Shown here in pieces: positions 333 through 5,473 of a DNA stretch of 6,105 bases; positions within the stretch are counted from its first letter, which is position 1, and each line of letters starts with the position of its first letter. A program made the position numbers and the translations under genes. Below the pieces are notes generated by a model. It was not told the DNA's origin. It saw nothing but the letters and a program-made list of their open reading frames with translations, and did not search any database. The stretch comes from Chloroflexota bacterium (GTDB taxonomy: Bacteria > Chloroflexota > UBA6077 > CF-72). The stretch covers positions 1-6,105 of the forward strand of contig JAFAWJ010000802.1 in assembly GCA_019242065.1 (NCBI GenBank), read 5' to 3'.

Positions 333-506
333 CTAACAGTCGGTAGCGATGCGGTGGGGGTAAGAAGCACCACTCATGTCTGCCGAACTCGAAGTCGCCA
401 GCAGCGAATCGGCGGACTCGGTATGGACGCACCCCGCGACGTAGACGGCCGTGATTGCCGACGCCGCGAGCGTCACGAGTCGCCGACTCAGATGGTTGCG
501 AGGCAT
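333..506 (-). pseudogene. Truncated paralogue of the FMN-binding protein (N-terminal anchor and start of linker only)
   Basis: A 57-codon minus-strand frame starts with ATG at 506-504 and ends with TAG at 335-333. Its N-terminus closely matches that of the FMN-binding protein at 3035-3568: both read M-x-x-N-x-LSR, then AASAITAVY, G, HT and AD, with about 20 of the first 33 residues identical. It therefore looks like a second copy of that gene's membrane anchor or signal region. The similarity fades in the linker. The frame breaks after a run of five Gs (356-360, plus strand). Dropping one G would continue an Ala/Pro/Thr-rich stretch (SLPTVRLAQTPLPAPAAAIT) like the linker of the intact protein, as far as about 290, where ATPase-like sequence takes over. 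No FMN-binding domain or flavinylation motif follows, so no flavin carrier can be made. It has its own operator and -10-like element upstream. Whether the short peptide is still produced is unknown. Confidence 0.65.
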
Positions 507-514
507 GTGCCGCC

Positions 515-520
515 AGGGTA
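515..520 (-). promoter_or_regulatory. -10-like element for the truncated FMN-protein paralogue
   Basis: The minus strand reads TACCCT here, keeping TA and the final T of TATAAT. It begins 49 nt from the start of the four-part operator at 569 and ends 8 nt before the ATG at 506. Equivalent hexamers (TACGCT, TAGGCT) occur 48 nt into the other two operators in this window; that conserved spacing is the main support, since the match to consensus is weak. Confidence 0.45.
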
Positions 521-525
521 GGCCG

Positions 526-569
526 TGGACGCTTGGTGATCGTTTTGAAAGGTGTCAAAAGTATGTCAA
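526..569 (-). promoter_or_regulatory. Four-unit, 11-bp-phased operator (copy 1, minus strand)
   Basis: Reading from 569 to 526, four hexamers start exactly 11 bp apart: TTGACA (569), TTGACA (558), CAAAAC (547) and CCAAGC (536). Spacing of one helical turn in direct repeat is typical of OmpR/PhoB-family response-regulator sites, and the first two units also resemble a Pho box (TGTCA-N6-TGTCA on the plus strand). The same order, TTRACA-like twice then CnAARC-like twice, recurs at 613-656 and 2971-3014 without gaps. Operator start to start codon is 63 bp here and 64 bp for the intact FMN-binding gene. The likely binder is the response regulator encoded at 1012-1677, which is an inference. Confidence 0.6.
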
Positions 570-612
570 AGCCATCCGCGGGTTCCTGTGCCCAGATTCG
601 ATATGCGAACCT

Positions 613-656
613 TTAACAGCCAGTTATCCACTCTCGAAGCGAAAGCCAAGTTTTCG
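613..656 (+). promoter_or_regulatory. Four-unit, 11-bp-phased operator (copy 2), upstream of the two-component operon
   Basis: Hexamers start 11 bp apart: TTAACA (613), TTATCC (624), CGAAGC (635) and CCAAGT (646). Aligned without gaps to the copy at 2971-3014, 26 of 44 positions match; 20 of 44 are identical in all three copies of the window. It points away from copy 1, the two being separated by 43 bp (570-612), in which I see nothing else. It would serve the small unknown gene and the response regulator and kinase genes behind it, suggesting autoregulation. Confidence 0.55.
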
Positions 657-660
657 GGCG

Positions 661-666
661 TAGGCT
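661..666 (+). promoter_or_regulatory. -10-like element for the two-component operon
   Basis: TAGGCT lies 48 nt from the first base of the operator at 613, the same offset as TACGCT in the redox operon. If used, transcription would start near 673. That would exclude the GTG at 667 as a translation start and favour the GTG at 688. Confidence 0.4.
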
Positions 667-687
667 GTGAGTGCAGCGGAACAGAAT

Positions 688-975
688 GTGAGCAACGACG
701 AACTCTGGGAGCGTGTGCGAGCCCTTCGGGGCTCGCTCGTGCGCGCCGCCTCGGGCCTCCGCACGTTTTACGTGGTCAGCGTTTCGACAGACGTGGCCGT
801 CCTGCGGGGGACGAAAAGATACGACGTTCGGCGCTCGACGTTGGAGGCGGCATACGCCCTGGGACGAAGTAGCAATGCCTTGCTGCCCGAGGAAGTCAGT
901 CATGCGCGGCTCGATCGCGTTGATCCGACCCTACTCGTCGGGCTTCTGAATGCTATTGGCGCGGATCGCGAGTGA
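688..975 (+). CDS. Small protein of unknown function preceding the two-component genes
   Basis: I do not recognise this protein. From the GTG at 688 it has 95 residues; an in-frame GTG at 667 would add seven (MSAAEQN). I prefer 688 because a -10-like hexamer occupies 661-666 and would put the transcript start after 667; the only ribosome-site hint is a weak GGAACA at 678-683. The product is soluble-looking, charged, with no membrane segment, signal peptide or cysteine. A helical N-terminus (DELWERVRALRGSLVRA) is followed by a probable beta region (TFYVVSVSTDVAVLRG) and a helical C-terminal half (STLEAAYALGR to LLVGLLNAIG). It ends 36 bp before the response regulator on the same strand and probably shares its transcript, so a link to that signalling pathway is possible but unproven. 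Codon use is similar to its neighbours, which supports a real gene. Confidence 0.5.
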   Translation: MSNDELWERVRALRGSLVRAASGLRTFYVVSVSTDVAVLRGTKRYDVRRSTLEAAYALGRSSNALLPEEVSHARLDRVDPTLLVGLLNAIGADRE

Positions 976-1011
976 TCACGTTCTGGATCTGGCCCTCCGC
1001 GCTATAACGAA

Positions 1012-1677
1012 GTGAACATCCTGATTGTCGAAGACGATGCTCGGATCGCTCAAAGCATCGGGCGCGCATTGCTGTCCGCGGGCCACTGCGCGGACATTGC
1101 CGCCGACGGCGCAGTGGCGCTCGAGGACGCAACGACCAGGGAGTACGATCTCATCTTGCTCGACGTGCTGTTACCCGCGCTCGATGGCTTCTCGGTCAGC
1201 CGCGAGTTGCGTCGACGGAAGGTCCAGACGCCGATCTTGATGTTGACCGCGCGAGATGCCGTTGAGGACCGCGTGAGCGGACTCGATGCCGGGGCAGACG
1301 ATTACCTGACCAAGCCATTTGCCACCGAGGAACTGCTGGCGCGCGTGCGTGCGCTTGCCAGGCGCGGCGGCGTACCCGAGGGGCCCCTGCGCGTCGCTGA
1401 CGTAGTGCTCGACACCGCACGCCACGAGGTGCAACGCGACGGGCGCCTGATCGAGCTGACGCCTCAGGAGTTCGACCTGCTCGAATTTCTGATGCGGCAT
1501 TCCGGACAGGTCATCAGCCGCGAGCAGATCTTCCGGAATGTCTGGCGCAACGAGACGAATGCCGGCTCTAAAGCGGTCGAGCTGTACATGCACTACCTGC
1601 GCGCCAAGATCGATCGCGATACGGCGCGCCCGCTGATACGCACCGTCCGCGGCGTTGGCTACATGATTGATGGATGA
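1012..1677 (+). CDS. OmpR/PhoB-family DNA-binding response regulator
   Basis: This 221-residue protein is a full-length two-component response regulator. The receiver domain (about 1-117) has the acidic pair D8/D9, the phospho-acceptor D51 in LLDVLLP, the switch threonine T79 in MLTARD and the conserved K101 in TKPF. A winged-helix Trans_reg_C domain follows (about 124-220), with the usual ELTPQEFDLLEFLMRHSGQV core, the recognition-helix region around AVELYMHYLRAKI and the C-terminal RTVRGVGYMI hairpin. Such proteins bind as dimers to direct repeats about 11 bp apart, which is the layout of the three operators in this window. The start is a GTG at 1012 with no convincing ribosome site, so it may be coupled to the gene ending at 975. 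Its stop overlaps the kinase start (ATGA at 1674-1677), so the two are co-translated partners. The regulated process is inferred only from the neighbouring redox operon. Confidence 0.95.
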   Translation: MNILIVEDDARIAQSIGRALLSAGHCADIAADGAVALEDATTREYDLILLDVLLPALDGFSVSRELRRRKVQTPILMLTARDAVEDRVSGLDAGADDYLTKPFATEELLARVRALARRGGVPEGPLRVADVVLDTARHEVQRDGRLIELTPQEFDLLEFLMRHSGQVISREQIFRNVWRNETNAGSKAVELYMHYLRAKIDRDTARPLIRTVRGVGYMIDG

Positions 1678-2963
1678 CGGCCATATTTGGTGGTCTCAGG
1701 TGGCGGATGGTCGGGTGGTCCATCCTGGTGCTCGGGGTGGTTCTGCTGGTGATCGGCGTCGTGTTGTATTTGAGTCTGAGCCGGACGCTCATGGTGACGC
1801 TGGACGCGCAGCTCGAGTCAGCCAGTCAGTCGGCGAGGATGGAGTTGCTCGAGAGCGGGGGCACCGTCGACCTTCAGCGAGACGGCTATCGAGCTGGCGT
1901 TCTGTACGTGGTGCTTGCCCCTGACGGGAGCGTCGTCGCCAATCCGCAACAGCTCGACGTCCAGGTGCTGCCTGCACAGCTGCTGACAAGTGAGGCGCCC
2001 ACATTCGTCACCACCACGATCAGTGGAGATGCAGTACGCCTGTACGCCCAACCTGTTATAGAGCCCAACGGTGACCACCTGACGTTGATCGTGGGCCAGA
2101 GCCTGGCGCCGGAGTACGCGGCGGCGCAACAGCTGATGCTCACGCTGGGCGTATGCGGCGCCCTTGGGTTGTTGTTCTCTTTCGCTGGAGCCTGGTTTCT
2201 GGCGGCGCGGGCACTGGTGCCTATCAACCGGGCATTTCAACGTCAGCAGGAGTTTGTCGCGGACGCATCGCACGAGCTCCGCACGCCCCTCACCATCCTC
2301 CACTCGGCGGCGGACTTGCTTGCCAGCGACCCCAGGCAACCCAGTCCGGGTCTGGTGTACGAGATCCGGGAGGAGATCAGCCGTATGGAGCGCTTGACGC
2401 GTGACCTGCTCACGCTCGCTCGCTCCGATCGTGGGGAGTTGACGCTGGCGTTGGGGCGACTCGAGCTTGGCGCACTGGCGCGCGATCTGGCACAGCGAGT
2501 GTCCGTGCTCGCGGAGGCCCGCAGCATTCGTCTGGAGGTGCATTCGCCGGAAGCAGCGGTGCTGATCGAAGGCGATCCAGACCGGCTGCAGCAGGTCGGC
2601 CTTGCCGTGCTCGACAACGCGTTGAATCATACGCCGCCCGGCGGAACCATCACCATCACGGTGTACCAGCGCACCGCTGCCGGCTTTCTGGTGATCGAGG
2701 ACACGGGTGAAGGTATTCCCGAGGACCATCTGGCGCGTGTGTTCGATCGCTTTCACCGCGTGGATCCCTCGCGCGCACGGAGCACCGGCGGTGCCGGGCT
2801 CGGCTTAGCCATTGCACGCATGCTGGTCGAAGCGCATGGCGGGAGCATCGAGATCGCCAGTGGCCGTGAGTCGGGAACGCGGGTGACGATTTGCGTGCCG
2901 CTGGTTGGCACGGATCCTGAGCCTGCACAAGAGCCTGACCAGGGCATCCCATCAAGTCGGTAA
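1674..2963 (+). CDS. Membrane sensor histidine kinase, partner of the preceding response regulator
   Basis: This is a 429-residue class I (HisKA) sensor kinase. Membrane segments lie at about 13-35 and 152-177, leaving a roughly 115-residue extracytoplasmic sensor region of no recognised fold. After the second segment, RALVPI resembles the first half of a HAMP linker, but the second HAMP helix is missing and the H-box follows at once: FVADASHELRTPLT with H200 as phospho-acceptor. The catalytic HATPase_c domain has an N-box (LDNALNH, N315 and N318), G1 box DTGEGIP (343-349), F-box FDRFHRVD (357-364) and G2 box GGAGLGLAIA (372-381). Every kinase motif is intact. The short linker recalls CiaH-like kinases. 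The ATG lies in the ATGA overlap with the regulator gene. The TAA at 2961-2963 is only 7 bp before the operator of the next operon, and I see no terminator between, so read-through is possible. Confidence 0.94.
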   Translation: MTAIFGGLRWRMVGWSILVLGVVLLVIGVVLYLSLSRTLMVTLDAQLESASQSARMELLESGGTVDLQRDGYRAGVLYVVLAPDGSVVANPQQLDVQVLPAQLLTSEAPTFVTTTISGDAVRLYAQPVIEPNGDHLTLIVGQSLAPEYAAAQQLMLTLGVCGALGLLFSFAGAWFLAARALVPINRAFQRQQEFVADASHELRTPLTILHSAADLLASDPRQPSPGLVYEIREEISRMERLTRDLLTLARSDRGELTLALGRLELGALARDLAQRVSVLAEARSIRLEVHSPEAAVLIEGDPDRLQQVGLAVLDNALNHTPPGGTITITVYQRTAAGFLVIEDTGEGIPEDHLARVFDRFHRVDPSRARSTGGAGLGLAIARMLVEAHGGSIEIASGRESGTRVTICVPLVGTDPEPAQEPDQGIPSSR

Positions 2964-2970
2964 TGGGTCG

Positions 2971-3014
2971 TTGACAGCTCTTTAACGCCTCTCCAAACTT
3001 GATCCAAACTGGCC
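2971..3014 (+). promoter_or_regulatory. Four-unit, 11-bp-phased operator (copy 3), upstream of the redox operon
   Basis: Hexamers start exactly 11 bp apart: TTGACA (2971), TTAACG (2982), CCAAAC (2993) and CCAAAC (3004). The last two belong to a perfect 7-bp direct repeat, CCAAACT, separated by 4 bp. This is a typical geometry for PhoB/OmpR-class regulators and lies just downstream of such a regulator and its kinase. Ungapped alignment with copies 1 and 2 gives 26 of 44 matches in each case. The upstream TTGACA could be mistaken for a sigma-70 -35 box, but no good -10 stands 16-18 bp after it; the better -10 candidate is at 3019. Confidence 0.65.
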
Positions 3015-3018
3015 TGAC

Positions 3019-3024
3019 TACGCT
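3019..3024 (+). promoter_or_regulatory. -10-like element of the redox operon
   Basis: TACGCT stands 4 bp after the operator and 48 nt from its first base, matching the offset of TAGGCT (661) and TACCCT (520-515, minus strand). Transcription would begin near 3031, leaving only a few bases before the ATG at 3035, so the message would be leaderless or nearly so. The hexamer itself matches TATAAT at only three of six positions. Confidence 0.5.
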
Positions 3025-3034
3025 TTGGAACAAG

Positions 3035-3568
3035 ATGGCGAGCAATCGACTGAGTCGCGGTGTTGTCTCTGTGGCAGCTTCGGCGATCACCGCCGTGTAC
3101 GCGGTCGGCTATATCCACACCCAGACCGCCGACGCCTCACTCGGCGCACCTGACACCGTCGCTCCGACGGTGGCTACTTCACCGGCGGCGATCCAGCCAC
3201 CCGCGGTCACCACAACCAACCCCTCGCCACCATCCACGACACGCCAGGGCAGCACGAGCGCAACATCCGCAACTGGAACGTCCTCAGCGACGCAGCCCAG
3301 CGCGACCCTGAAAGATGGCACCTATAATGGTGTCGGTACTAGCCGGCGCGGGAATGTTCAGGTGTCGCTGTCTGTCCAGTCTGGACGAATCGCGAGCGTG
3401 AACATCACCGGCGCGTCGACCGAATACCCGACGCGCGATATCGCCAGCCTGCCGGGCCAGGTAGTTTCACGTCAGAGCTCGCAGATAGACATCGTCAGCG
3501 GCGCGACCTACAGCTCCCTCGCCTTCCGCGGCGCGGTCCAGCAAGCGCTCCAGAAAGCACAGGCCTGA
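3035..3568 (+). CDS. Extracytoplasmic FMN-binding protein with ApbE-type covalent flavin site
   Basis: A 177-residue protein expected to carry covalently bound FMN outside the cytoplasm. Residues 10-27 form a short hydrophobic signal or anchor segment; 35-92 are a low-complexity Ala/Pro/Ser/Thr linker; 93-175 form an FMN_bind domain like that of RnfG and NqrC, starting KDGTYNGVG. The motif DIVSGAT (152-158) is a perfect Dxx(S/T)GAT flavinylation site, with T158 as the residue to which ApbE would attach FMN. I chose the ATG at 3035 over a TTG at 2999 because the TTG lies inside the operator repeats and because the truncated paralogue on the minus strand (506-333) aligns from its own ATG exactly here. 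It is the first gene of a redox operon; the membrane partner begins 2 bp after its stop. No apbE gene is in view, so the transferase must be encoded elsewhere. Confidence 0.88.
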   Translation: MASNRLSRGVVSVAASAITAVYAVGYIHTQTADASLGAPDTVAPTVATSPAAIQPPAVTTTNPSPPSTTRQGSTSATSATGTSSATQPSATLKDGTYNGVGTSRRGNVQVSLSVQSGRIASVNITGASTEYPTRDIASLPGQVVSRQSSQIDIVSGATYSSLAFRGAVQQALQKAQA

Positions 3569-3570
3569 GC

Positions 3571-4557
3571 ATGCGTCAATATCAGCCGCGCGTGCTCACA
3601 GCGAATAACTCCGATTGGCAATCGACCACGCGTCGCGGTGACGACGCTCCAAAGCTGCCGTTGTTCCTGCGTACGCCCAAAGGTCAGTTGTTGTGTATCT
3701 TCGGATTGCTGCTGTTGATCGCCGCGCCGTTCGATGGCGGTCTCGCGGTGTTGCCGCATGTGCTGGTCGCGGTGCTAGCCGCCTGTGTCCTGGATGTGCT
3801 CCTTGGGTACTGGTATACCCACCGCTGGATCACGCCGACCAGCGCCTTGCTCAGCGGGCTCATCGTCGCTTTTATTCTTGGAGCGCAAGAGCCATGGTTG
3901 GTGGTCGCCTGGGTGGCCGCATTTGCCAGCATCAGCAAGCGCGTCTTCGCTACCCAACGTGAGCATATTTTCAATCCAGCCGCGCTGGCGCTGCTGGGAA
4001 GCGCGCTGTTCTTCAGTAGTGGTCAGAGCTGGTGGGGAGCGCTAGGTGATGCACCGGGTGTGTTCGCGCTGGTGCTCGTCGCCTGCGGCGTGTTCATCGT
4101 CGACCGTCTGAACAAGTTTGGCCTGGTGCTCGCGTTTCTGGCAACGTACTTTGCCGCATTCGCCGCAGTATCGCTGTTGAATGCTGCGAGCGTCACGGAG
4201 ATGTTCCGCACGCCGTTCGTGCAATCGGCGCTGTTCCTCGCGTTCTTCATGCTGACCGACCCGCCCACCTCGCCGAATCGACTGGTCGACCAGGTGTGGT
4301 ACGGCGTCATTGCCGGCGTGGTGGCCGTGGTCTGTCAGCTTCTCGGAGCAGGTCAGGTCTATCTGCTGCTGGGCGTGCTGGCAGCCAACGTCTGGCTGGC
4401 CGTGCGACGCTGGATGCAGCGGCGTCCGCGGCTGACGACCCCGCTGGAGGGGCATCCTGCTCGGCAAGTGCCACGCGTCGCGCCGTACCCGTTGTCGTCG
4501 CACACAAAGATTCGTAAGGCAGCCCGAGCACTCGTGCTCGGCCTGTTTTCTGCATGA
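3571..4557 (+). CDS. RnfD/NqrB-family integral membrane electron-transport protein
   Basis: This 328-residue polytopic protein has about nine or ten hydrophobic segments between residues 39 and 278. Family signatures are PTSALLSGLIVAFIL (89-103), HIFNPAA (132-138) and FMLTDPPTSP (226-235), all matching conserved stretches of RnfD and NqrB. In Rnf and Nqr complexes this subunit carries electrons through the membrane between flavins and quinone or partner subunits. Those relatives usually have a covalent FMN on a threonine in an SGAT/DGAT-like motif between the two later signatures; I see none here, so the only covalent flavin of this pair would be on the preceding protein. The charged N-terminus (1-35) and the tail (280-328) flank the membrane core. 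The ATG follows the upstream stop by 2 bp, which suggests translational coupling. A terminator-like hairpin lies within its last codons. No RnfA/E/B/C or NqrF-type subunit is present. Confidence 0.88.
   Translation: MRQYQPRVLTANNSDWQSTTRRGDDAPKLPLFLRTPKGQLLCIFGLLLLIAAPFDGGLAVLPHVLVAVLAACVLDVLLGYWYTHRWITPTSALLSGLIVAFILGAQEPWLVVAWVAAFASISKRVFATQREHIFNPAALALLGSALFFSSGQSWWGALGDAPGVFALVLVACGVFIVDRLNKFGLVLAFLATYFAAFAAVSLLNAASVTEMFRTPFVQSALFLAFFMLTDPPTSPNRLVDQVWYGVIAGVVAVVCQLLGAGQVYLLLGVLAANVWLAVRRWMQRRPRLTTPLEGHPARQVPRVAPYPLSSHTKIRKAARALVLGLFSA
4521..4550 (+). terminator. Intrinsic terminator-like hairpin inside the 3' end of the RnfD-like gene
   Basis: CCGAGCA (4524-4530) and TGCTCGG (4535-4541) form a perfect 7-bp stem with a CTCG loop, extendable by two pairs past one C-C mismatch, and are followed by GTTTTC. 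The last ten or so codons of the RnfD-like gene, before the TGA at 4555-4557, run through it. The U-tract is short (four T), so termination is probably partial, which could lower cytochrome expression relative to the two flavin-system genes. Confidence 0.55.
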
Positions 4558-4624: not shown

Positions 4625-5473
4625 ATGACAGTTCCGACTGCCGAGCAAGCTCCGACCAGGAGGGGACCCGCCGCCCCGTTGCGACTCATGATCGTCGCTG
4701 CACTGGCCGGTGGGGCGGTCGTACTCGGGATTGTTGCCATCATCGGAGCACCGCTCCTGCTGCTGCACCGACAGGACCTGCCGCTCGAGCAGCAATACGG
4801 CCACTTTGCGATTGGTGTGGCGGCGCGCGTCATGGCTGGCAACGCATCCAACCCGGTCGCGAATAATCCGCGTGCTGTTGCTGCTGGCCGCGATGCGTTC
4901 ACCGGATCATGTGCTGTATGTCACGGTAGTACGGGCGACGGAACTGGCGCCTTTGGCGTGGCCACGTACCCACCCGCCACAAATCTAACGAGTCACGACG
5001 TCGTGGAGAAGAGTGATGCTGAGTTGTTCTGGATCACGAAAAACGGACTCAGCTTCACGGCGATGCCGGGCTTCGGCGACCAGTACTCCGATCAGGACAT
5101 CTGGAACATTGTTGCGTACATGCGCTCGCTCCAGAATGGTCAGCCAGCCGCTGCGAGCGTCCCGAGCCCGACCTTCGCCCAGCTCGAGGCCGCCGATCCA
5201 AACGGCGACGCGGTGCAACGTGGTGCTTCTGTGTACTTTGCCGAGGGCTGTCAATCGTGCCACGGAGCGGTGGGCGATGCTCCAGGCAACCTGGCGCTGC
5301 GCGGTGCGGGCGAGACCGGAGCGATTCGACGCGGAAGGCCGGGCATGCCAGCCTACGGCACTGATCGCATCAGTGACGCGCAGCTCGCGGACCTCCAGGC
5401 GTATTTGCGGACTTTTGCGGGAGGATCGCCGAATCGTGAACCTGGTGGTGGCCGTGAGCAACGTGGGGGGTGA
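4625..5473 (+). CDS. Membrane-anchored dihaem cytochrome c
   Basis: A 282-residue protein with two class I (cytochrome_CBB3-like) c-type haem domains, probably held outside the cytoplasm by an N-terminal membrane segment (about 20-46) that follows a short Arg-containing N-terminus. The first haem site is CAVCH (96-100), with M147 in TAMPGF as likely axial ligand. The second is CQSCH (209-213), with M241 in PGMPAY as likely ligand. A Pro/Ala/Ser-containing linker around 175-190 joins the domains, and the tail (269-282) is Gly/Arg-rich and probably disordered. Its role would be one-electron transfer to or from the flavin protein and RnfD-like partner upstream, or a terminal oxidase or reductase; the partner is an inference from gene order. 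The gene starts 67 bp after the RnfD-like stop, behind a terminator-like hairpin, and has a strong ribosome site at 4611-4616. I see no clear promoter in the gap. Confidence 0.93.
   Translation: MTVPTAEQAPTRRGPAAPLRLMIVAALAGGAVVLGIVAIIGAPLLLLHRQDLPLEQQYGHFAIGVAARVMAGNASNPVANNPRAVAAGRDAFTGSCAVCHGSTGDGTGAFGVATYPPATNLTSHDVVEKSDAELFWITKNGLSFTAMPGFGDQYSDQDIWNIVAYMRSLQNGQPAAASVPSPTFAQLEAADPNGDAVQRGASVYFAEGCQSCHGAVGDAPGNLALRGAGETGAIRRGRPGMPAYGTDRISDAQLADLQAYLRTFAGGSPNREPGGGREQRGG

Follow-up and report, generated by a model that had tools for sequence, protein, structure and literature searches.

Our analysis supports a model whereby three four-unit repeat arrays, here called copies A, B and C, on contig JAFAWJ010000802.1 of a Chloroflexota bacterium (assembly GCA_019242065.1) form the operator of an OmpR/PhoB-class response regulator encoded on the same contig. 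For the stretch of 6,105 nucleotides (nt) that was analysed, hereafter the window, we consider it highly likely that this regulator controls its own operon and, through the same operator, a regulon for extracytosolic flavin/cytochrome electron transfer, and that the arrays do not represent a Pho regulon. The evidence for this assignment is the sequence of the arrays, their spacing, their conservation and their recurrence before the same kinds of gene in other genomes. It yields a predicted DNA code, with its regulator and regulon, for such electron transfer in uncultured soil Chloroflexota, and the code is explicit enough to be tested directly and to guide annotation of this control elsewhere.

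Results

The window encodes, in this order, a small open reading frame (ORF), the response regulator, a histidine kinase, an FMN_bind protein, an NqrB/RnfD-like membrane protein and a cytochrome c (Table 1). A preceding sequence-only reading had described three arrays, each with four hexamers at steps of 11 base pairs (bp), and these were recovered at the same coordinates, with a gapless alignment in which 20 of 44 columns are common to all three copies and pairwise identities are 25, 26 and 26 of 44. Its statement that this identity lies far above chance was too strong. Because 0.1 (at 50% G+C) to 3.7 (at 63.5% G+C) such triples are expected once every triple of 44-mers on both strands is counted, the identity among the three copies, taken alone, is weak evidence. 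The fixed offset of the -10 hexamer holds to within one nucleotide, while the TAnnCT form given for that hexamer widens to TAnnnT in relatives. The weight of the evidence for the arrays comes from other genomes and, at the level of sequence comparison, settles copies B and C.

Table 1 Features of the window.
Feature	Positions	Strand	Sequence or basis
Array A, upstream of truncated FMN_bind paralogue	526..569	-	TTGACA-N5-TTGACA-N5-CAAAAC-N5-CCAAGC
Array B, candidate operator of two-component-system operon	613..656	+	TTAACA-N5-TTATCC-N5-CGAAGC-N5-CCAAGT
Array C, candidate operator of redox operon	2971..3014	+	TTGACA-N5-TTAACG-N5-CCAAAC-N5-CCAAAC
-10-like hexamer of A, TACCCT	515..520	-	offset 49 nt from the array's first base
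-10 hexamer of B, TAGGCT	661..666	+	offset 48 nt from the array's first base
-10 hexamer of C, TACGCT	3019..3024	+	offset 48 nt; first ATG 10 nt further
Remnant of 57 codons, ending at stop	333..506	-	translation; N-terminal resemblance to FMN_bind protein by eye
Small ORF between promoter B and regulator	688..975	+	ORF list; Pfam/NCBIfam scan
OmpR/PhoB-family response regulator, Response_reg + Trans_reg_C	1012..1677	+	domain matches, tree
Sensor histidine kinase, HisKA + HATPase_c	1674..2963	+	Pfam; orthologues found in relatives
FMN_bind protein, hydrophobic N-terminal stretch	3035..3568	+	Pfam, ORF list
NqrB/RnfD-like membrane protein	3571..4557	+	Pfam, homologue search
Cytochrome c, two CBB3-type stretches	4625..5473	+	Pfam

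The regulator combines a receiver domain (PF00072, 98.5 bits) with a winged-helix Trans_reg_C domain (PF00486, 88.3 bits), the combination that defines the OmpR/PhoB family. Orthologues (E<=1e-70) were found in 26 of 301 sampled genomes of the phylum, and regulator-kinase pairs in 10 of 29 genomes of the class. In a midpoint-rooted tree the orthologues form a group of 28 rows (96/94) separate from 10 paralogues, and the window regulator belongs to a supported group of eight (97/95) with those of genomes G001, G002, G003, G009, G010, G011 and G012. The upstream regions of the orthologues share the arrangement half-site-N5-half-site-N9-TAnnnT. From 27 orthologue promoters in other Chloroflexota, 16 training sites were chosen by eye and with a matrix, no FMN_bind promoter being among them, and the resulting regulator matrix recovers copy C (p=0.001) and copy B (p=0.006) when compared with shuffles. 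Leave-one-out scores reach p<0.05 in 22 of the 27 orthologue upstream regions, the p-values of the 16 selected sites being optimistic, and in 6 of the 11 that were never in training. The orthologue upstream regions also score above coding controls (p=1e-7) and above the upstream regions of the 10 paralogues (p=0.003).

Spacing was counted with a half-site word that was picked after the sites had been seen and that has no spacing built in. Half-sites 11 bp apart were seen 11 times against 0.4 expected in the regulator promoters and 6 times against 0.2 in the FMN_bind promoters, and a distance of 15 bp from half-site to TAnnnT was seen 11 times against 0.3 and 7 times against 0.1, respectively; none of 200 shuffles reached the counts at either spacing. 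Half-site spacing peaks at 11 bp, and the distance from half-site to TAnnnT peaks at 15 and 26 bp. With their direct repeats at 11-bp steps before the targets, units 3 and 4 qualify as a candidate operator of the OmpR/PhoB type, and here the sequence-only reading is borne out both by a spacing far above shuffles and by the matrix tests on other genomes. Its claim that the two-component system regulates itself is likewise supported by the recovery of copy B and of the orthologue promoters.

Among the paralogous regulators, those of loci L130, L131, L133, L134 and L137 have TTCATC/TTAATC-type 11-bp repeats before their genes (p 0.01-0.1), with TATAAT after that of L134; sister subfamilies may thus share the architecture but differ in half-site. 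Separately, at eight loci (L125, L126, L129, L157, L158, L159, L164 and L166) a site of the same type as that of the orthologues, called from scores only, faces away from the regulator gene, and the genes after these outward-facing sites are mostly of unknown function.

A site of the same kind precedes redox operons in relatives. In the locus search a single RnfD-like sequence as query found none, and alignment A1 as query worked. A matrix derived from copies A, B and C was run against eight RnfD-like-encoding Chloroflexota loci and one acidobacterial locus; its top match lay upstream of FMN_bind in L001, L002, L003 and L012, with the -10 hexamer at the same 48-nt offset as in the window, and there was no FMN_bind-upstream match in L005, L006, L007 and L010. 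Its top match in L004 (position 3224) overlaps the start of the gene itself and is probably spurious, the regulator matrix placing the site elsewhere. The regulator matrix was applied to 15 FMN_bind promoters; loci of other phyla (L007-L009, L011 and L013-L080) were excluded, and L103 (contig end, no upstream region), L106 (on the contig of L010) and L107 (no FMN_bind match) were dropped. Twelve of these 15 related promoters (10 genomes) score p<0.05, and 12 of the 15 exceed the 95th percentile set by 113 further upstream regions from these loci (p=1.5e-7 by rank test). The only control above 5.4 is the promoter of a histidine kinase orthologue that follows FMN_bind-RnfD in G002, and its array again has four units (CTGAGA-N5-CCAACC-N5-CCAAGC-N5-CCAAGT-N9-CAGACT). 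Sorted by genome, matches were found in 8 of 10 promoters from genomes with the regulator pair and in 1 of 2 from genomes without it (G024 yes, G020 no). The regulator/kinase pair (10 of 29 genomes) and the RnfD-like gene (9 of 29) occur together in 7 (Fisher p=0.002). Enrichment upstream of FMN_bind/RnfD operons in relatives had been set beforehand as a test by which the proposed regulon could fail, and it is present; control of the redox operon is supported by these promoters and by the match of copy C to a matrix made from regulator promoters of other genomes.

Genome-wide scans, in which at most 150 candidates per genome were scored and missing targets mean little, extend the predicted regulon to cytochromes. 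Model R2, built from regulator promoters only and run over the 29 class genomes, gave nine matches at E<=10, six training promoters and three new ones, all in regulator-bearing genomes; these genomes hold about 41% of the bases, and the coincidence of the three new matches is by itself weak (about 0.07). The best match within G008 (E 0.013) lies upstream of an orthologue of the window cytochrome c. Such orthologues (E<=1e-30) occur in 3 of the 29 genomes, G007, G008 and G009, all of which carry the regulator pair and the RnfD-like gene, and the site lies upstream of those in G008 and G009 (p 0.005 each), which are both promoters that could be scored, the upstream region in G007 being cut by the contig end. 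The window cytochrome c, third in its row, has no site upstream of its own (p 0.21). G009 also has a second regulator/kinase pair (47% and 38% identity), facing a row of PepSY, ApbE and ferric-reductase-like genes, of which the ferric-reductase-like one only just reaches the Pfam cut-off; that cytochrome comes next in the row; the sites score 19.1 (regulator), 18.2 (PepSY gene) and 15.5 (cytochrome), the p-value above applying to the cytochrome site only. The new matches in G003 precede a YceI-like gene and a long efflux-adaptor-like protein (the latter by eye). Across 16 further regulator-bearing genomes R2 gave 20 matches at E<=3 in 13 genomes, of which 9 are training promoters and 11 were read by eye only, one of these preceding another OmpR-type regulator and three having no clear ORF.

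A strict four-unit model, R1, was built without copy A and finds it at 13.2 bits (E 0.039), over positions 1-46 of the model's 54, as the sole non-training match at E<=10 in 29 sources with 331,719 bases. Copy A is a real array, but it lies before the truncated paralogue and is probably an inherited duplicate. Over the 29 genomes R1 finds its three training FMN_bind promoters and two weak matches, in G016 (E 0.43) and G015 (E 0.62), genomes without the regulator at E<=1e-70; no targets were added from these.

The two halves of the array differ in conservation. Seven arrays are of the window type, namely A, B, C and those of L001, L002, L003 and L012 (window, G001, G002, G003 and G007). The half-site matrix is positive at unit 4 in all seven and at unit 3 in six, and units 3-4 are a conserved half-site, CCAAkS/CTCATS, which is well conserved in the orthologous regulator promoters too, together with a weak trace at unit 2. 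At units 1-2 all 14 hexamers of the window-type arrays begin TTR and nine begin TTRAC, and in direct orientation the half-site matrix scores four of them above the 95th percentile for random 7-mers. The other ten lie at or below that percentile, and this does not support the idea that the TTRAC-like units are degenerate versions of one half-site shared with units 3-4. When unit 1 is scored as an inverted half-site, at the best of six offsets, A, L001, L002 and L003 (TTTGA) give 5.6-7.1 bits, the L098 kinase promoter 4.4 and B 1.6; C and L012 do not score in this way. TTRAC-like units 1-2 recur in the window-type arrays of four other genomes and not in most other promoters, and the FMN_bind promoters of L098 and L099 mostly have CCAA/CTCA-type hexamers at these positions. 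The mixed order of two repeat types that had been proposed therefore describes the window-type arrays and not most other promoters; moreover, it was the window matrix that picked out L001-L003 and L012, and the likeness of their units 1-2 is partly selection.

Discussion

In the mechanism that we infer, which predicts regulator binding and phosphorylation, activation over repression, the operon structure, the transcription starts and the signal, the histidine kinase would sense an envelope or redox signal and phosphorylate the regulator, whose dimers in tandem would bind the 11-bp-phased half-sites head to tail. The proximal pair (units 3-4; roughly T-CCAAkS / T-CTCATS), which ends 9 bp (10 in A) before the TAnnnT -10 hexamer, would lie over the -35 region in the activator mode of the PhoB class, by analogy, and would replace the -35 element, its occupation recruiting RNA polymerase. 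In PhoB-dependent promoters the box lies just upstream of the -10 element, in place of the -35. Copy B would autoregulate the two-component system, copy C would give rise to a short-leader transcript for FMN_bind, RnfD-like protein and cytochrome c, together a predicted module for extracytosolic flavin/heme electron transfer, and copy A would be the duplicate left before the broken FMN_bind paralogue. In the eight promoters measured (window C, L001-L004, L098 (kinase), L202 and L203) the first ATG lies 7-17 nt after the -10, which points to predicted short leaders or leaderless transcripts; the short distance is not general, the site lying further upstream in most regulator and several FMN_bind promoters.

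Several observations weigh against this model. Five of the 27 regulator promoters fail at p<0.05, the window regulator sits on a long branch of the midpoint-rooted tree, and the matrix is not wholly specific, two of the ten paralogue promoters (L134 and L136) scoring p<=0.01. Copy A is not significant with the regulator matrix (p 0.22, shuffles), and most hexamers at units 1-2 of the window-type arrays (10 of 14) are unlike the half-site in direct orientation. The regulator matrix misses the FMN_bind promoters of L001 (p 0.17), L006 (0.71) and L101 (0.38), the first of which is found by the window-derived matrix. Conversely, it matches all three FMN_bind promoters (L005, L010 and L105) of G004 and G006, two genomes outside the regulator search, and that of L102 in G024, where no regulator orthologue passes the threshold. 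Finally, the link to FMN_bind is not phylum-wide, because in distant regulator-bearing genomes the site accompanies only 3 of the 15 FMN_bind genes and is missing from 12.

The character of units 1-2 would also fit a composite operator, in which the regulator would occupy units 3-4 and a second OmpR/PhoB-type regulator or another factor would bind the TTRAC-like units on the same face of the DNA, so that TTRAC-like and CCAARC-like pairs would be read by two regulators, or by one in two orientations. Such an array would be an AND gate for surface electron transfer, layered over the older two-unit autoregulatory site that is found across Chloroflexota. We regard this as rather unlikely. It would account for the uniform TTR starts, for the ten hexamers that do not pass the half-site percentile and for the weak trace at units 1-2 of regulator promoters elsewhere, and TTAAC/TTAATC repeats lie upstream of the paralogous regulator genes of L130 and L133 (p 0.1 and 0.075). 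However, OmpR/PhoB half-sites are degenerate and four of the 14 hexamers do pass, L098 and L099 fill the same positions with CCAA/CTCA units, the selection noted above inflates the likeness of units 1-2, and no second regulator has been linked to the arrays.

Three other explanations fare worse. That the three copies are alike only through recent duplication of one promoter is very unlikely: the remnant after A does resemble the FMN_bind gene after C, but the units are retained in other genomes, whereas A and C are mismatched at 18 of 44 positions, and B precedes an unrelated gene, with the site recurring before regulators, a kinase and cytochromes elsewhere. Duplication is refuted for B and C and is likely as the origin of A. 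TTGACA, the sigma-70 -35 consensus, is the first hexamer of the arrays A, C, L002 and L003, and the arrays might thus be chance by-products of housekeeping promoters with unit 1 as an ordinary -35; we consider this extremely improbable, as no consistent -10 follows about 17 bp after unit 1 (by eye), the seven window-type arrays have a TAnnnT-like hexamer at 48 nt (A, 49 nt) from the first base, and unit 1 is missing from regulator promoters that retain units 3-4 and the -10. A Pho reading, with the arrays as Pho boxes bound by an orthologue of PhoB/PhoP, is also highly improbable. The tandem 11-bp architecture is shared (PMC4415409, available text) and Mycobacterium PhoP is the best sequence match among solved structures, yet the regulator reaches 189.2 bits with the PhoB model TIGR02154 against a cut-off of 296.2, short of orthology; none of nine PstS-like genes in regulator-bearing genomes has the site upstream (p 0.09-0.87; none of the nine reaches the PstS cut-off), and the targets seen are flavin, cytochrome and envelope genes.

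An operator of the OmpR/PhoB class for electron transfer thus remains our preferred reading, and its architecture is known. In the available text of the two sources, head-to-tail binding to direct repeats that follow one another in 11-bp register is established for the PhoB/PhoP class (PMC4415409), and Mycobacterium PhoP binds arrays of three and four motifs more tightly than arrays of two (PMC4832192). The window arrays share these tandem 11-bp repeats with the Pho box of PhoB and with PhoP of Mycobacterium and Streptomyces, as described there, and differ in the half-site, CCAAkS/CTCATS against CTGTCAT or GTTCACC. The label 'undescribed' given by the sequence-only reading accordingly fits the motif and regulon of this regulator and not the four-motif 11-bp architecture. 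In the literature searched, with few subscription journals covered, no description of the regulator, motif or regulon was found among the matches listed, nor, judged by titles and abstract starts, any regulator-operator pair in Chloroflexota. The FMN_bind protein and NqrB/RnfD-like membrane protein are shared with extracytosolic flavinylation and NQR-RNF-like systems (eLife 2021, PMC8238504), a source whose main text, as available, contains no 'Chloroflex', no 'histidine kinase' and one 'two-component'. The best NCBIfam match of the regulator is to the heavy-metal regulators CzcR/SilR/CopR (TIGR01387), at 221.4 bits below the cut-off of 279.2, and no metal-efflux gene was seen in the window. 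The operators of CzcR/SilR/CopR are inverted-repeat-like copper boxes.

Neighbouring genes

The FMN_bind protein scores 38 bits with PF04205 against a cut-off of 22, and judging from the position of the promoter its start is likely ATG 3035 and not TTG 2999. No ApbE match was found among the eight window ORFs scanned; since the related loci L001 and L200 do encode ApbE, the enzyme that flavinylates the FMN_bind protein probably has its gene in another part of the genome. Homologues of the RnfD-like protein that bear organism names are from Chloroflexota, and others, with 70-88% identity, lie on metagenome contigs. The small ORF has no family match in Pfam or NCBIfam, and GTG 688 is a likelier start for it than the listed GTG 667, which adjoins the -10. 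The remnant after copy A is without the FMN_bind part and has an N-terminus like that of the FMN_bind protein (by eye). Beyond this truncated paralogue, same-strand frames resemble a fragment of an unrelated ATPase regulator, which suggests a rearrangement behind copy A.

Elsewhere, in locus L145 (8229-10384) of G010, a genome without an RnfD-like match at E<=1e-40, the regulator adjoins SCO1/SenC and plastocyanin-like genes, and MacA/MacB/FtsX-like export genes recur beside the regulator or its sites in L194/L203, L143 and L217 (from Pfam for L143, by eye for the others).

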